64,000 bases of DNA from Lentilactobacillus farraginis DSM 18382 = JCM 14108 (GTDB taxonomy: Bacteria > Bacillota > Bacilli > Lactobacillales > Lactobacillaceae): NCBI RefSeq assembly GCF_000583655.1, contig NZ_BAKI01000008.1, positions 1-64,000 on the forward strand. The letters are read 5' to 3'. Both the position numbers and the translations under genes were made by a program. The notes beneath the pieces are model-generated. The model saw nothing but the letters and a program-made list of their open reading frames with translations, ran no database searches and was not told where the DNA came from. Shown here piece by piece: positions 231 through 26,785 of the stretch (its first letter is position 1; each line of letters begins with the position of its first letter).

Positions 231-259
231 TTTACTTTTCATTTTTAATCTGGTAAGAT
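231..259 (+). promoter_or_regulatory. Promoter of leader peptide and MHS transporter
   Basis: TTTACT at 231-236 and TAAGAT at 254-259 are separated by 17 bp. Almost the same 29-bp promoter, including the T-rich spacer, stands in front of the paralogous transporter at 20360-20388 on the other strand, so its conservation supports the call. Confidence 0.65.
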
Positions 260-290: not shown

Positions 291-350
291 ATGAAAATCA
301 ATTCAATTTACAATTTAGTCATTATTGCCGTTCGTGTCGTCATTATTTAA
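291..350 (+). CDS. Ile/Val-rich leader peptide, 19 residues
   Basis: An ATG after the ribosome site GAGGAAG opens a 19-codon frame whose C-terminal part is Ile-Ile-Ala-Val-Arg-Val-Val-Ile-Ile, then TAA. The stop is followed within 4 bases by GC-rich alternative hairpins and a terminator, the usual layout of a ribosome-mediated attenuator. A second leader with the shared Arg-(Val/Ile)-Val-Ile-Ile motif precedes the paralogous transporter at 20250-20327. The inferred role is to sense charged tRNA-Ile and tRNA-Val: a stalled ribosome would favour readthrough into the transporter gene. No independent match to a named leader family could be checked. Confidence 0.7.
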   Translation: MKINSIYNLVIIAVRVVII

Positions 351-437
351 CCCGCGGGCGCACTTTTGACTGCCCGCAAAAACGGGCAGAATTGGTTTTC
401 AAGCCAAGAACTGTCAATTCGGTTCTTGGCTTTTTTT
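351..437 (+). promoter_or_regulatory. Transcription attenuator with competing hairpins
   Basis: GCGGGC at 354-359 can pair with GCCCGC at 372-377. CTGCCCG at 370-376 can instead pair with CGGGCAG at 383-389. A third hairpin, GCCAAGAAC at 403-411 with GTTCTTGGC at 422-430, is followed by seven T and is a canonical terminator. TTGG at 393-396 can pair with CCAA at 404-407 and would break the terminator. The mutually exclusive pairings directly after a short Ile/Val-rich frame indicate attenuation; the exact switching logic is inferred. Confidence 0.7.
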
Positions 438-609: not shown

Positions 610-1932
610 ATGGAAAATACCAATCCAACATATGACACAACTGCCAAGTCTAACAGCCTGCAACGAGACCCGGTGAAAACCGTTATTTTTGCCTCAATGA
701 TCGGCACCGCAATTGAATTCTTTGATTTTTACGCCTACGGAACCGCTGCCGCTACATACTTTCCAAACGTCTTTTTCCCGTCGCTAACCCCAACTATTGC
801 AATGATTCTAAGCCTTTTAACTTTCGGCGTTGCTTTTGTCGCCCGACCGCTGGGGTCACTGCTATTTGGCCACTTCGGTGATAAACTGGGTCGCAAACGC
901 GCCCTGGTTGTTTCCCTACTACTAATGGGTGTTTCGACCGTCATTATCGGTCTGCTTCCCGGCTACAAAACCCTTGGTATCACGGCAATCATGTTACTTT
1001 GCCTAGCCAGGTTCATTCAGGGAATCGGCCTTGGCGGTGAATGGTCCGGTGCCGTTCTGGTCGCTACGGAAAATGCACCAAAGGGCAAACGGGCGCTTTA
1101 TGGCGCTTTTCCCGAACTAGGTGCGCCGATCGGCTTTTTCTTAAGTAATGGTCTTTTCTTCACGCTGGAATCAATCCTAACGCCCGCTCAAATGAACACT
1201 TTCGGCTGGCGAGTACCGTTTCTGGCTTCCGCTGTCCTCGTTATTGTCGGCCTATGGGTTCGTCGCAAAATGCAGGAAACCCCACTCTTCCGATTAGCTC
1301 AGCAGCAAAACACCGTTGAAAAAGCACCTTTAGTTGAAGTTTTCCGTAAAAACTGGCGCCAAGTTATCCAAGGAGCGCTGACAATGGGTGTTTCGTACAC
1401 ATTCTTCTTTTTGCTTTCAACGTGGTCATTGAGTTACGCAACCACGGCGCTCGGATTTAATAACCGGGAATGGCTGTTACTGCTAATGTCTGCCATCATC
1501 GTCTTTGGGATTATGATCCTTTATTCATCAGTATTGGCCGATAAATTTGGCCGTAAGAAAGTCTTAATTACCGGTACGATCCTAATCACAGCCTTTGCAT
1601 TCGCATTTCCATTTTTCTTCCAAGGGCAACACAACCTCTTTGGCAGCCTGTTTTTCCTCTTTATTGGCTTTTTCACCATGGGGATTGTTTATGGCCCGAT
1701 CGGTGCATTGCTTCCTGAGTTATTCCCTACCAATACCCGTTATTCGGGTGCCGGTATCGCGTACAACATGTCAGCCATTATTGGGGCCGCTTTTGCGCCG
1801 ACGATTGCTTCCTTCCTGGTAGATAAATGGGGCATTCACGCTGTTGGGACGTATCTGGCAATTATGGCAATTGTTTCACTAATCGCCTTGATCACTACCA
1901 AGGAAACCAAATCTATCGATTATACAAAGTAA
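610..1932 (+). CDS. MHS-family (metabolite:H+ symporter) MFS transporter
   Basis: This 440-residue membrane protein has the MFS layout of about 12 helices, with the motif-A loop GDKLGRKR after the second helix and the family-typical stretch IEFFDFYAYG near residue 38. MHS carriers are proton symporters for organic acids, osmolytes and similar small molecules; ShiA and ProP are relatives. The product of 18737-20065 is a close paralogue. Transcription probably depends on the Ile/Val leader and attenuator at 291-437, about 170 bp upstream. That suggests a substrate linked to branched-chain amino acids, such as the amino acids themselves or their keto acids. This substrate is an inference; the fold and family are clear. 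Confidence 0.85.
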   Translation: MENTNPTYDTTAKSNSLQRDPVKTVIFASMIGTAIEFFDFYAYGTAAATYFPNVFFPSLTPTIAMILSLLTFGVAFVARPLGSLLFGHFGDKLGRKRALVVSLLLMGVSTVIIGLLPGYKTLGITAIMLLCLARFIQGIGLGGEWSGAVLVATENAPKGKRALYGAFPELGAPIGFFLSNGLFFTLESILTPAQMNTFGWRVPFLASAVLVIVGLWVRRKMQETPLFRLAQQQNTVEKAPLVEVFRKNWRQVIQGALTMGVSYTFFFLLSTWSLSYATTALGFNNREWLLLLMSAIIVFGIMILYSSVLADKFGRKKVLITGTILITAFAFAFPFFFQGQHNLFGSLFFLFIGFFTMGIVYGPIGALLPELFPTNTRYSGAGIAYNMSAIIGAAFAPTIASFLVDKWGIHAVGTYLAIMAIVSLIALITTKETKSIDYTK

Positions 1933-18736: not shown

Positions 18737-20065
18737 TTACTTCGTGTAGTCAATTGACTTGGTTTCTTTGGTAGTTAGCAATGCGACCAACGAAACAAAG
18801 GCCATTAATGCCAGATAGAAACCAACCGCGTGGATCCCCCACTTATCAACCAAGAATGATGCAATTGTTGGCGCAAAGGCGGCACCAATGATAGCTGCCA
18901 AGTTGTAAGCAATTCCTGAACCTGAATAACGGGTGCTGGTCGGGAATAATTCCGGCAGCAGGGCGCCAACGGGTCCATAAATGATTCCGTAGATGAAGAA
19001 ACCAACAAAGATGAAGAACAAGCCACCGCCAACATTATGCTGTCCCTGGAAGAAGAATGGAAAAGCCAACGCAAAGGCGATAATCATCAATGTTCCAGTA
19101 ACCAACACACCCTTTCGGCCAAGTCGATCAGCAAACAGAGAGGCAACCACAATCATGACACCAAACAAAACAACTCCCAGCATCAGCAACAATAACCATT
19201 CACGATTATTAAAGCTCATGGCTGTGGTTACGTAACTCAATGACCACGTTGTCAGTAAATAGAAGAAGGTATAAGCAACTCCCATTATGAAGGTTCCCTT
19301 AAGAATTTGAGCCCAATTATGCTTAAAGACTTGGGCCAATGGTGCTTTTTGAACTTTGGACTTATCCATTGCCAAACGGAACAATGGCGTTTCTTGCATT
19401 TTTTCTCGAACAACCAATCCGACAACTACCAGAACAGCAGAAGCCAAGAATGGAATCCGCCAGCCAAATGCCTGCATTTGAGCCGGCTTTAATGTTGATT
19501 CAAGGACAAAGTAAAGACCATTACTCAGGAAAAAGCCAATTGGCGCACCCAATTCCGGAAAAGCACCATATAAAGCTCGGCGATTAGCCGGCGCATTTTC
19601 AGTTGCAACCAAAACAGCACCGGACCACTCACCGCCAAGCCCAATTCCTTGAATGAATCGAGCCAAACAAAGTAGAAGAACAGATAGGAGTCCCAAAGTC
19701 GCATAACTTGGCAGGACGCCGATAACAACCGTTGCGGTCCCCATCGTCAACAGCGAAACAACTAAAGTTTTCTTTCTTCCCAATTTGTCACCAAAATGGC
19801 CAAAGATTAGTGATCCTAAAGGTCTGGCAATAAAGGCAACCCCGAATGTTAAAAGACTTAAAATAAGAGCAATCGCCGGTGTTACTTTCGGGAAAAAGAC
19901 TTTCGGGAAGTATGTAGCTGCTGCAGTACCATAAGCATAAAAATCAAAAAATTCAATTGCGGTCCCGATCATCGAAGCTAAAATAACAGTTCTCACAGGA
20001 TCTCTTTGTAAAGTAACGGTCGATTCTTGTGTGGAATCAACCGCTGTCGTAGGCGTATCTTCCAT
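18737..20065 (-). CDS. MHS-family MFS transporter, paralogue of the 610-1932 gene
   Basis: A 442-residue twelve-helix carrier, colinear and very similar throughout to the MHS protein at 610-1932. They share LQRDPV at the N-terminus, IEFFDFYAYGTAAATYFP in helix 1, GHFGDKLGRK in motif A, and an identical end KETKSIDYTK. The start is the ATG at 20065, matching the paralogue; a GTG 4 codons upstream overlaps the ribosome site. Its leader peptide, attenuator and promoter (20173-20388) also match those of the paralogue, so the two carriers are a duplicated regulatory unit likely controlled by Ile/Val supply. The substrate is unproven. Confidence 0.85.
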   Translation of the reverse strand: MEDTPTTAVDSTQESTVTLQRDPVRTVILASMIGTAIEFFDFYAYGTAAATYFPKVFFPKVTPAIALILSLLTFGVAFIARPLGSLIFGHFGDKLGRKKTLVVSLLTMGTATVVIGVLPSYATLGLLSVLLLCLARFIQGIGLGGEWSGAVLVATENAPANRRALYGAFPELGAPIGFFLSNGLYFVLESTLKPAQMQAFGWRIPFLASAVLVVVGLVVREKMQETPLFRLAMDKSKVQKAPLAQVFKHNWAQILKGTFIMGVAYTFFYLLTTWSLSYVTTAMSFNNREWLLLLMLGVVLFGVMIVVASLFADRLGRKGVLVTGTLMIIAFALAFPFFFQGQHNVGGGLFFIFVGFFIYGIIYGPVGALLPELFPTSTRYSGSGIAYNLAAIIGAAFAPTIASFLVDKWGIHAVGFYLALMAFVSLVALLTTKETKSIDYTK

Positions 20066-20172
20066 AAAAACATTCACTCTCCTCTATCATTTACGTATTG
20101 TAGATTACAATACAAACACTCATTACCGGACAACTTTTTACCAATTTCCATAAACCACTTCCTTTCCTGAAA

Positions 20173-20249
20173 TAAAAAACGCCAAGAACTGTATTGACAG
20201 TTCTTGGCGAATGACACCAACCCTGCCCGCACGCTTGCGGGCACCCCAA
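20173..20249 (-). promoter_or_regulatory. Transcription attenuator of the second MHS gene
   Basis: On the minus strand, CTGCGGGC at the end of the leader frame can pair with GCCCGC a few bases later. GCCCGC can alternatively pair with the following GCGGGC. The terminator CGCCAAGAACTGT (20180-20192) pairs with ACAGTTCTTGGCG (20197-20209) and ends in six T. The terminator core GCCAAGAACTGTCAAT is the same as in the first unit at 403-418, showing common origin. Confidence 0.7.
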
Positions 20250-20327
20250 TTAGCCCGCAGTATGAATAATAATCACAATGCGAGAAATTAAGCTATTTAA
20301 GTATAATGATAAGTTGGTGTTTTTCAT
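20250..20327 (-). CDS. Ile/Leu/Val-rich leader peptide, 25 residues
   Basis: After GGAG and 9 further bases, an ATG opens a 25-codon frame with Leu codons in the first half and Ser-Arg-Ile-Val-Ile-Ile-Ile-His near the end. The last codons (GCG GGC TAA) are part of the first attenuator hairpin, so a ribosome finishing the peptide covers it. The shared Arg-(Ile/Val)-Val-Ile-Ile motif with the 291-350 peptide, and the same position relative to promoter and hairpins, support a real leader that senses branched-chain amino-acid charging. Confidence 0.7.
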   Translation of the reverse strand: MKNTNLSLYLNSLISRIVIIIHTAG

Positions 20328-20359
20328 TTCAAGCGATCTCCTTTTCATAAATTGGTTTC

Positions 20360-20388
20360 ATCTTAGCAAAATAAAAATTAAAAGTAAA
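20360..20388 (-). promoter_or_regulatory. Promoter of leader and second MHS gene
   Basis: TTTACT (20383-20388) and TAAGAT (20360-20365) are 17 bp apart on the minus strand, with a T-rich spacer almost identical to the promoter at 231-259. Confidence 0.65.
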
Positions 20389-24082: not shown

Positions 24083-25654
24083 TTAAAGCGTTAAATCTGC
24101 TTTTTTCCAATAATCCACATAGTGCCACACGATATAGGTACTGGCGATGACCACCAAAAGCAAAGCACTGGCATTGATGAATAGTGGTGAAAAAGCGTTT
24201 AATAACGTCACATAGATGGCCACGACGATGCCACCGGCAATCATAACACCCAGCATAACAAAACCAATCATAACACTGCCGCCACCTCGATTAAATAACT
24301 GCGTCGCGTTAGTCCATGTCAAATCAAGCAGCCGCCAATCACGGGTATAGTTGTACAGACTGCTTAAAAGATTTCCCAAGAGCACACCCAGACAAAGCGT
24401 TACGGCATTGAACCACATCAACTTAGCCAAAAACGCAAAACCGATTGCCAGGCAAACCAATATCACCGACTGAATCGCTACTACCAATTTGAATTTCAGC
24501 CATAGGTAACTTTTGAAATCAATTGGCAGCGATTTAATAAAGGGCAGATTTTGCCGATCCAGTGAAATCATAACGCCAGCCAGCGATCCCTGGCTAATCA
24601 TGACAACGGCTCCCATAATGCCAACTACAAACGTGACACCGGCATACTTAATCGTTAAATTGGCCAATGAAAACCTATTTTGCACAAACATTGCGATCCC
24701 AAAAAAGACAATTGGAACAATCGTCATCGCCATTGACTGGGTAAGCAGCGTCGGGTTACCGAGTAAGCCAAGATTGTAACGAATAAACTGCCGGGCCATT
24801 CCCTGTCCCCGGCGGTGCTTGCGGGTAACCGTTCTGGTTTGCGCATTGGCACCACTCATTACTTTTGGCAGCAGCCATTTTTGAAGCAACAGCCCCATCA
24901 TGACAACCGCAACCAGCAAGATCGCCACAGTAATCAAGCTGGTCGAACTGATTGGGTCAACGACCACCTGATGGAGTTGCGTAAGTCCCGGAATCGGCTT
25001 GTAACTCGTACTGTCGTCATCAGAAGCTGAATTCATAACGACAATCGCACCAATCATCGCAATCATCGTAATTCCCGTCATCAAAAAGGTCATCAGTTTT
25101 TGATGATGGCGATAAAGCTTGGTTTGAGCAAAACTGAAGATCGCAATTGAACAAAACAAAAATAGAAATATGTAGTAAAGGATAAACAGCAACGTGCCAA
25201 CTGTGATCCCCACCCCGACAAAACGACCGGTTTGAATGCCGGTAATCACGAACATCATCCAAACGGGCAATGCGGTCGGTAGAATGATTAAACCGATAAC
25301 CGAAAACTTAGCTGCATAAACCGCCCATTGGCTGAGTGGCAGAGGGAGATAATCTTTGAGATCCTTGCTTTCAAAAAAGACATTATCAATGGTCGTCACA
25401 CTTTGTGATAAACCGATAACGGTAAATAAGCCCACAACATTGGTAAAAGCACCAATATCTTTAACCAAATTCGTCGTTAGCAGCAACCCACCATAAATAA
25501 AAGCGAATATACCGCCCAGCAAAACGTATTGTCGAATCAAAGCCCGATACAGTGCCGAACCGGTCTTACCGCTTTCCCGCTGCTTACGAGTCTGTTGCGG
25601 ATTAACATACAAAATATTAATTTTAATCAGTTGTTTGAGCTGTTGACTAATCAT
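24083..25654 (-). CDS. ABC exporter permease subunit
   Basis: A 523-residue membrane protein with about 12 hydrophobic segments and no ATP-binding domain. The start is the ATG at 25654, which overlaps the 3' end of the ATPase gene by 8 bases. The large ABC-2-like permease with a separate ATPase points to an exporter of lipophilic or peptide substrates. Two small genes of unknown function follow it directly. The substrate cannot be read from sequence. Confidence 0.8.
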   Translation of the reverse strand: MISQQLKQLIKINILYVNPQQTRKQRESGKTGSALYRALIRQYVLLGGIFAFIYGGLLLTTNLVKDIGAFTNVVGLFTVIGLSQSVTTIDNVFFESKDLKDYLPLPLSQWAVYAAKFSVIGLIILPTALPVWMMFVITGIQTGRFVGVGITVGTLLFILYYIFLFLFCSIAIFSFAQTKLYRHHQKLMTFLMTGITMIAMIGAIVVMNSASDDDSTSYKPIPGLTQLHQVVVDPISSTSLITVAILLVAVVMMGLLLQKWLLPKVMSGANAQTRTVTRKHRRGQGMARQFIRYNLGLLGNPTLLTQSMAMTIVPIVFFGIAMFVQNRFSLANLTIKYAGVTFVVGIMGAVVMISQGSLAGVMISLDRQNLPFIKSLPIDFKSYLWLKFKLVVAIQSVILVCLAIGFAFLAKLMWFNAVTLCLGVLLGNLLSSLYNYTRDWRLLDLTWTNATQLFNRGGGSVMIGFVMLGVMIAGGIVVAIYVTLLNAFSPLFINASALLLVVIASTYIVWHYVDYWKKADLTL

Positions 25655-26414
25655 GCTTATCCGCCCCCTCAAGCTGATCAATTACCTGGCTGTCACCCTG
25701 TCGGCCGGCCATTTTCAAATAAATGGTCTCCAATGACGCATTCGGCATTGTACTCAGCAACTGTTTAACCGACCCATTGTAAATCAATTGTCCATGACGA
25801 AGAATTGCCAACTCGTCACACAGTTCCTGCGCTGTTGCCAATACATGAGTCGAAAAGATGACGGTTTTACCCTTGGCAGCGTGCGAACGCATCAATGTCT
25901 TTAAATCATAAATTGCTTGAGGATCCAAACCGGTCATCGGTTCATCAAGAACCCAGATATCGGGATCAGATAGCAGCGCACCAATTACAACCGTTTTTTG
26001 CCGCATACCGTGTGAAAAATCGCCGATGGGTTCATCCGCGTGTGAATCCATATCAAAAAGCCGGGCCAGCTTGGTTTGGCGTTGTTCTCTAACATCCTTT
26101 GGAATCTCATAAGCAGACGCAATCAAATCCCAGTAGTCATTAGCTGTCAGCTCTAAAAACATATCCGGTGAATCCGGTACGTAACCGATTTTCTTTTTAA
26201 TTGACAGCCGATGATCGGCTAAATTATAGCCATCTACGTTAATGGTTCCCGATGTCGGTTCAATAATGCTCACTAAACTCTTTAACGTTGTTGATTTTCC
26301 TGCACCATTATGCCCCAGAAAGCCAAAAATTTTACCGTTCGGAATTGTTAACGTCAAATCCCGCAAGGCTTCGGTGGAAGGATAAACTTTTCTCAGATGA
26401 TTAAACTCGATCAT
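25647..26414 (-). CDS. ABC transporter ATP-binding subunit
   Basis: A 255-residue ATPase with Walker A GHNGAGKST (residues 34-42), the variant signature FSHGMRQK near 135, and Walker B DIWVLDEPMTGLDP near 155-168. It belongs to the drug/bacitracin-exporter branch that pairs with a separate permease, here the overlapping gene downstream. It is the first gene of the leftward operon. Confidence 0.9.
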   Translation of the reverse strand: MIEFNHLRKVYPSTEALRDLTLTIPNGKIFGFLGHNGAGKSTTLKSLVSIIEPTSGTINVDGYNLADHRLSIKKKIGYVPDSPDMFLELTANDYWDLIASAYEIPKDVREQRQTKLARLFDMDSHADEPIGDFSHGMRQKTVVIGALLSDPDIWVLDEPMTGLDPQAIYDLKTLMRSHAAKGKTVIFSTHVLATAQELCDELAILRHGQLIYNGSVKQLLSTMPNASLETIYLKMAGRQGDSQVIDQLEGADKHD

Positions 26415-26785
26415 AAATAAACGCCCCTATTCAGAAATTTGTTTCATTATACACCGAGCGCCCATCATCACAAATCACAAACCAGATCAAAACACTATCA
26501 AACGTTGATAAATCAAGATTGCTATAATTTAAAGCCCTCGGTTTTGCAATACCCGTTGCTCTTTAAATTACCTTAATTTTATGAAGAAAGTGTGAATTTT
26601 TTATGGAGAAATAACGAATTTTGAATAGTTAAGTGGGTACTAAGCTTGCTTTCTTAATTTCCATACTGGATTATCTACCGGAAACCGGTTTCGGGTTGGT
26701 TTTCGATGGATATTTTGAAGCCACTCATAGATTTAAGCGGTATACTAAAAATAAATGCAGTTATCATTATTAGGGGGATACGCTA
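26415..26785. other. Intergenic region without a recognised gene
   Basis: This 371-bp divergent gap holds a 12-bp perfect palindrome GAAACCGGTTTC at 26681-26692 and a TATACT -10 box at 26741-26746, which would serve the small gene at 26786. Nothing else is supported. Confidence 0.5.

Follow-up and report, generated by a model that had tools for sequence, protein, structure and literature searches.

A family of putative ribosome-mediated attenuators with isoleucine and valine control codons upstream of MHS-like carrier, ilvD and brnQ genes in Lactobacillaceae

The 64,000-nucleotide stretch of Lentilactobacillus farraginis DNA analysed here (contig NZ_BAKI01000008.1, positions 1 to 64,000; hereafter the window) contains two copies of a leader unit, each upstream of a gene for an MHS-like carrier, that very probably functions as a cis-acting, ribosome-mediated transcription attenuator sensing charged tRNA-Ile and tRNA-Val (and also tRNA-Leu at ilvD). 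Comparison and calculation revealed a leader ORF with a conserved frame, a set of helices, an association with particular target genes, a codon bias and an exchange of Ile for Val codons. The leader RNA is made up of segments that pair in an off state (1:2, 3:4 and 5:6) or an on state (2:3 and 4:5), and in an extra helix, a:e, which joins the leader's opening codons to the spacer that precedes the terminator; with the unit off, 1:2 and 3:4 lie inside a:e, and 5:6 follows it. The original prediction had placed the leader of copy 2 at 20250-20327 and a matching unit at 231-437; these coordinates were right, and a leader-attenuator unit was confirmed at both sites, with the following features:

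20360..20388, minus strand: promoter-like site of copy 2, found by eye (TTTACT at 20388-20383, a 17-nt spacer, then TG-C-TAAGAT with TAAGAT at 20365-20360)
20338..20343, minus strand: Shine-Dalgarno-like AAGGAG of the copy 2 leader ORF
20250..20327, minus strand: copy 2 leader ORF of 25 codons, from the ATG at 20327 to the stop at 20250, peptide MKNTNLSLYLNSLISRIVIIIHTAG
20313..20320, minus strand: segment a, within codons 3-5 of the leader, pairing with e
20245..20292, minus strand: hairpin 1:2 of the minimum-energy fold, covering the Ile/Val codons and segment 2
20253..20258, minus strand: segment 2, GCGGGC
20237..20242, minus strand: segment 3, GCCCGC
20223..20230, minus strand: segment 4, GCGGGCAG
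20214..20221, minus strand: segment e, GTTGGTGT
20197..20208, minus strand: segment 5, the 5' arm of the terminator
20181..20192, minus strand: segment 6, the 3' arm of the terminator, followed by a T run
18737..20077, minus strand: MHS-like MFS carrier behind copy 2, matching TIGR00883 over its full length (E 1e-121, 406.6 bits, cutoff 443.45)
231..259, plus strand: promoter-like site of copy 1, found by eye (TTTACT, 17 nt, TAAGAT)
291..350, plus strand: copy 1 leader ORF, peptide MKINSIYNLVIIAVRVVII
293..437, plus strand: copy 1 switch, with a at 293-304, 2 at 354-359, 3 at 371-376 and 4 at 383-389, and in its 3' part e at 389-400, 5 at 402-413 and 6 at 421-431, then a T run
610..1932, plus strand: paralogous MHS-like carrier behind copy 1, with 76% protein identity to the copy 2 carrier

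Both copies have a promoter-like site in which TGn precedes the second hexamer, a Shine-Dalgarno-like sequence, a terminator and, as the ORF translations bear out, the R-(I/V)-V-I-I motif that had been read in both leader peptides. The terminators are 13-pair, U-tailed hairpins (20209-20180 in copy 2, 401-432 in copy 1); two terminator-like sites were found in the region of each copy, against shuffle means of 0.2 and 0.3, and the leader RNAs of both copies out-folded 200 of 200 shuffles (z = -6.95 for copy 2 and -6.56 for copy 1). The promoter-like site of copy 2 is kept in copy 1 and in the relatives; with 8 of 12 consensus bases, where 9 were required, it was absent from threshold scans of both regions. 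Directly upstream of the copy 2 promoter lies a 15-pair, mostly A-T inverted repeat (20440-20405, minus strand), which was listed as terminator-like, recurs by eye with compensating changes at loci L010, L013 and L014, and may be an operator or end transcription of the upstream gene.

Identity between the two copies is 71% in the promoter (29/41 columns), 51% in the leader ORF (42/82), 65% in the hairpin region (59/91) and 69% in the carrier genes (941/1356). The close match originally claimed for the copies is therefore found in the terminator and the promoter core, but not in the hairpin region overall, where the similarity does not exceed that of the carrier genes, so that the two copies alone are no proof of selection on the RNA. 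The accompanying argument from selection, thin evidence while it drew on two copies, is made instead by the comparative data across relatives. Such data also bear on the idea that a plain terminator hairpin was merely duplicated along with the carrier gene and regulates nothing: the position of the window copies before paralogs and the similar identities of hairpin region and genes would fit it, yet the same architecture is found with diverged sequence before five unrelated gene families and its alternative helices are maintained, and we regard this explanation as extremely improbable.

The two carriers appear to be divergent MHS-like carriers, since both align with the full length of the metabolite:H+ symporter model TIGR00883 and miss its curated cutoff of 443.45 (406.6 and 412.8 bits). 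A PDB search with the carrier returned six distant MFS sequences and no hint of a substrate; the neighbouring genes make a branched-chain oxo or hydroxy acid the favoured candidate substrate. Among the best 80 of 585 relatives kept from a carrier search of genome contigs, the nearest carrier comes from Lentilactobacillus raoultii (98%). Although MHS carriers are the most frequent target of the unit, they do not by themselves prove a branched-chain link, which rests on IlvD, BrnQ and HicDH together with the leader codons.

The original prediction had envisaged a small regulon of Ile/Val-attenuated transporters. A covariance model built from 18 units (R1) recovered the two window units in the host genome (E 2.7e-25 and 5.7e-23) and a third strong copy outside the window (C127:130593-130747, E 2.3e-16; next match E 0.12). 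This third copy, with leader MKKTNALLLLQIIVLVVIIIS, precedes ilvD and a BASS transporter; the unbroken relative in genome G199 passes the IlvD equivalog cutoff of 618.15 with 774.5 bits. As ilvD encodes a biosynthesis enzyme, the predicted regulon is not one of transporters alone. The host ilvC and both host ilvD copies are each split into two frames (C127 near 124743-132541, C116 near 25132-26744), which suggests assembly indel errors or pathway decay.

In the genus, an MHS carrier was found at E 1e-100 in 11 of 24 genomes (14 genes), and the same 11 genomes have R1 matches below 1e-10, three further genomes having weak ones (E 0.001 to 0.006). For 13 of the 14 carrier genes the unit lies on the same strand as the carrier match and 76-365 nt before it; for the fourteenth (G278) it is on a different contig. 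ilvD (E < 1e-50; above cutoff in 4 genomes, split in the host) and ilvC (above cutoff) co-occur in 5 of the 24 genomes, and in 5/5 of these one ilvD copy is preceded by the unit, so that branched-chain synthesis in the genus, where present, has one gene under what is predicted to be the same switch.

Absence of the leader from orthologous loci had been named as what would speak against the original prediction; this is not borne out inside the genus, where 13 of the 14 carrier genes have the unit, nor at 14 of the 19 Lactobacillaceae carrier loci retrieved (L010-L028), which have it upstream. Three of the five Secundilactobacillus loci (L018, L019 and L028) have kept the promoter and lost the leader, and at L025 and L026 no leader was found within 281 and 165 nt of upstream sequence. 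At L018 and L028 the place of the leader is taken, by eye, by a short hairpin and T run, the 5' arm of the hairpin containing a Shine-Dalgarno-like CGAGG. The unit is also found upstream of the carrier in an Eggerthella MAG (L029) and on a Lactiplantibacillus plasmid (L009), where it is followed by the MHS carrier, a hydratase-like gene and a dehydrogenase whose nearest PDB entry is 1hyh. In a Bifidobacteriaceae ortholog (L054), the carrier is preceded at a distance of about 385 nt by a different leader ORF of 64 codons, full of Val, Ile and Leu, which is possibly an independent attenuator; R1 gave no match in this genome at E 1. Arthrobacter-type orthologs (L039, L041 and L055) have in common a small ORF ending ILDL(I/V)V......GNY(Y/C) shortly before the carrier.

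Across the family, R1 matched at E 0.01 in 71 of 301 genomes, at 91 places, of which 89 were taken and two opposite-strand overlaps left out. Among the 45 stronger matches (E 2.7e-25 to 1.5e-5; 44 of them up to 1.1e-7, one 1.5e-5), 33 have an MHS carrier gene no more than 450 nt away, 6 an IlvD gene and 1 a HicDH gene, the remainder comprising 2 before ApbE genes, 1 whose nearest gene is 2.2 kb away and 2 with no gene in reach. The 44 weaker matches (E 1.6e-6 to 0.01) include 12 directly before BrnQ genes, 11 before a hydratase-like gene (in 6 of these 11 followed by BrnQ), and 1 each before an MHS carrier, an IlvD, a YkvI-like transporter and a PTS gene. The other 17 have no relevant gene, some being by eye before rpoB or tRNA synthetases, and were taken as false positives. 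The one BrnQ checked passes the equivalog cutoff of 243.4 (317.9), and the HicDH target is nearest to PDB 1hyh, L-2-hydroxyisocaproate dehydrogenase (387 bits, versus 185 for the next entry). The hydratase-like protein had no match in Pfam and was far below the cutoffs of the NCBIfam hydratase models. The YkvI-like transporter (at L175) has a weak SSF match in Pfam.

A second model, R2, built from 14 BrnQ/hydratase units and no MHS unit, gave matches at E 0.001 in 57 of the 301 genomes of the family. It also recovered MHS units outside its seed (G209, E 1.4e-13; G123, 7.2e-11; G249, 3.3e-10); its best match in the host has E 0.11. Outside the family, R1 matched in four genomes of the order (E 4e-4 to 8e-4) and R2 in one (3e-4), which were taken as chance; in one genome of another family of the order (G311), weak R1 (E 6e-4) and R2 (E 3e-4) matches are at different places (C1:2203413-2203468 and C1:816850-816974). 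The counts within the family widen the predicted regulon from two carriers to one spread over the family and support the interpretation of the predicted unit as an Ile/Val attenuator.

Several units have unexpected neighbours. Those at L118, L123 and L133 have leaders with Val/Ile codons and, behind them, ApbE or nothing near in place of a branched-chain gene, whereas L131, which has an acetyltransferase neighbour of similar appearance, has the hydroxyisocaproate dehydrogenase. Ile-rich leaders precede the YkvI-like transporter gene at L175 (1010-1133) and a beta-glucoside PTS gene at L150 (3999-4174), the latter being hard to fit into a branched-chain regulon. In two genomes (L223, 820-979; L276, 3363-3518), a class II leader, MIKSASI(N/K)LTVSVSSVTH, is Ile-poor and Ser/Val-rich and precedes a gene resembling, by eye, that of glutamate-cysteine ligase; it is perhaps a retargeted leader.

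Of 27 insertions and deletions within aligned leader ORFs, 26 have a length divisible by three, compared with 32 of 97 behind the ORFs. Ile makes up 34% of the codons of MHS leaders versus 8% in 11 window genes, and IlvD leaders are rich in all three branched-chain residues (Ile 20, Val 15 and Leu 17%). Nine genomes have two R2 matches within 4 kb; in seven of these the units precede tandem BrnQ genes (the first gene having been assigned by tblastn in two genomes and by eye in five), the first leader reading VVVSVVI (VVVSVLI in one) and the second IIISIII around a constant Ser AGC codon that is part of helix 1:2. In the other two of the nine, the second unit precedes a gene like that of glutamate-cysteine ligase (by eye), and in an eighth genome, G274, BrnQ genes on separate contigs are preceded one by a Val leader, the other by an Ile leader. 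It is this exchange of Ile and Val codons on a common scaffold that argues most strongly for codon identity as the putative sensor. The unit has, in short, a short leader ORF, predicted to be translated, with repeated control codons that match the pathway.

The codon usage also bears on the alternative that the nascent leader peptide itself arrests the ribosome, as erm and bmrC leaders do, with an antibiotic or another small molecule rather than tRNA charging as the signal. The short leader, its hydrophobic C-terminus and the control of an MFS carrier are what such a peptide would lead one to expect, and the BmrC/BmrD and MsrD leaders are described as Firmicutes cases. We nevertheless consider arrest quite improbable, as the C-terminal residues vary between Ile and Val, the peptides end in HTAG, NTAG, S, N, M or R, Leu is added in the IlvD leaders, and IlvD, BrnQ and HicDH genes are branched-chain rather than resistance genes. 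A ribosome-independent RNA switch (a T-box, a metabolite riboswitch or a protein-bound antiterminator), to which the ORF would be incidental, is very improbable: the RNA structure is strong and some LIVCS (BrnQ-type) carriers are described as T-box regulated (PMC2494555), but the reading frame is kept, Ile and Val codons are exchanged between twin leaders, and an Rfam search at gathering gave no match in the window and only tRNAs in 20 related loci. At E 5, the two units matched no plausible Rfam family, T-box included.

For the attenuator structure, the 17 R1 matches without a relevant gene were excluded, leaving 72 of 89 leaders, of which 68 could be segmented (4 could not); 7 of these were set aside, the fold program having chosen 2:3 or mis-segmented them, as were 5 near-duplicates, which gave 56 elements. 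A column scan without prior structure recovered, among other short stems, a:e, 2:3, 3:4, 4:5 and 5:6 in class I, and 1:2, 2:3, 3:4, 4:5 and 5:6 in class II; a:e is missing from the class II scan because the sequence is too diverse to align, and does pair in single folds. Covariation of the off state is strong. In the terminator conformation of 18 units, 95.6% of cells are paired (slid controls 30-47%) and 12 of 24 pairs have changes on both sides, and in that of class II (14 units) 96.5% of cells are paired, with both-side changes in 12 of 35 pairs. The on-state helices of class I show no independent covariation (both-side changes in 1 of 16 pairs, no better than shuffles), and class II and swap tests were therefore used. 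In class II, 3 of 11 on-state pairs have both-side changes, a number reached by 19 of 500 shuffles, and there are 9 both-side-change cells, reached by 0 of 500. In L144 and L176 (class II), segment 4, arm 5 and arm 6 co-vary, with a C-G to U-A change in 4:5.

In the swap test on the 56 elements, native a:e, 1:2, 2:3 and 4:5 were stronger than swapped and shuffled partners (p from 3e-5 to 8e-11, values that are too small because the sequences are related); the weakest of them, 4:5, was above the swap mean in 42/56. Five of six control pairings outside the model were no stronger than swapped or shuffled partners, and the sixth, segment 1 with e, was stronger (p 0.04 against swaps, 3e-5 against shuffles). 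Terminator and antiterminator helices are accordingly predicted to be mutually exclusive.

In the mechanism we propose, ample charged tRNA-Ile and tRNA-Val would let the ribosome reach the stop codon and cover segment 2, so that 3:4 and the 5:6 terminator would form and transcription would end before the carrier gene. A ribosome stalled on the Ile/Val codons would instead let segment 2 pair with 3, and segment 4, thus freed, would join e in pairing with the terminator's 5' arm (4:5), allowing RNA polymerase to read through. Without translation, a:e, 1:2 and 3:4 would hold the unit off by default. In this way the unit would govern genes by which branched-chain amino, oxo and hydroxy acids are taken up, made and converted into one another.

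Ribosome positions were simulated by masking a 30-nt footprint at each codon. In copy 1, placing the A site on V14 to I18 gave values of 0.67-0.77 for 2:3, which was zero at I19, at the stop and without a ribosome. In copy 2, one ribosome placed on R16 to I19 gave only 0.01-0.07 because a:e stays closed; when an initiating ribosome was added, 2:3 rose to 0.71-0.81 on R16 to I19, reached 0.71-0.84 over the stretch from S12 to I19, and was at most 0.07 from I20 on. With the initiating ribosome, 4:5 of copy 2 was 0.74 both stalled and at the stop, so that on and off were not separated at this last step. The open window of the third host copy extends from L7/L8 to I18. In 49 of the 56 elements, an initiating ribosome plus a stall at some Ile, Val or Leu codon opened 2:3, and neither the absence of a ribosome nor a ribosome at the stop did so; seven elements, e.g. 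L167, failed these three conditions. Ile, Val and Leu account for 242 of 367 codons in open windows versus 220 of 693 other codons (55 stops among these), and mean 4:5 with an initiating ribosome was 0.61 stalled versus 0.47 at the stop, being higher when stalled in 44/56. The terminator was always favoured in the full-length RNA at equilibrium, which means that the on state must be kinetic and that timing matters.

A two-ribosome gate may be considered, in which full opening would need one ribosome stalled on the branched-chain codons and another at the leader start, as the conserved helix a:e would have to be held open, so that the unit would read both shortage and initiation capacity, the scaffold being retuned to Ile, Val or Ile, Val and Leu by codon exchange. 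This elaboration seems unlikely, the more so since the initiating ribosome raises 4:5 of copy 2 also when the other ribosome is at the stop.

For the MHS-like carriers and hydratase-like genes of lactobacilli that are uncharacterised, attenuation by tRNA charging would suggest a physiological signal in the form of branched-chain amino, oxo or hydroxy acids, compounds that matter in food fermentation. It would also constitute a leader-peptide regulon in a group in which T-boxes are the familiar device, and the natural Val/Ile twin leaders offer a ready test of codon-specific sensing.

The closest likeness among known systems is the enterobacterial his attenuator, described as forming AB, CD and the EF terminator in the off state and BC and DE in the on state (PMC10989985): both have six segments, pairing as 1:2, 3:4 and 5:6 versus 2:3 and 4:5, and a leader peptide with repeated control codons. 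The present family differs in having Ile, Val and Leu rather than His control codons, Gram-positive hosts, many separate target genes and the extra helix a:e; with the topology of the his type and neither His codons nor his targets, it would work like the his attenuator and is not a member of its family. Leader peptides have been noted in Firmicutes (PMC2965389), and in Staphylococcus aureus a leucine-rich leader-peptide attenuator of the branched-chain operon is described at ilvD (PMC5794164). The latter is similar in its mode of attenuation, its branched-chain operon and its Firmicutes host, but as described it serves one biosynthetic operon, uses Leu codons and has an antiterminator that pairs with the U tail. 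Attenuators with a leader peptide are also described for the ilv/leu operons of E. coli and Corynebacterium and predicted in Lactococcus and Streptococcus (PMC5794164, PMC11857589, PMC10272879). They follow the same sensing principle with branched-chain control codons; they concern biosynthesis operons, and no Rfam family matched the present units. The T-boxes described for some LIVCS carriers of the Bacillus cereus group, lactobacilli and clostridia (PMC2494555) have the same physiological input and one target family, BrnQ, in common with the present units, but bind uncharged tRNA directly, whereas the present family has a conserved ORF and no T-box match. No account of this attenuator family was found in the open-licence literature searched; the mechanism is known in kind, and what looks new is the RNA family with its target set, its extra helix a:e and its Val/Ile twins.
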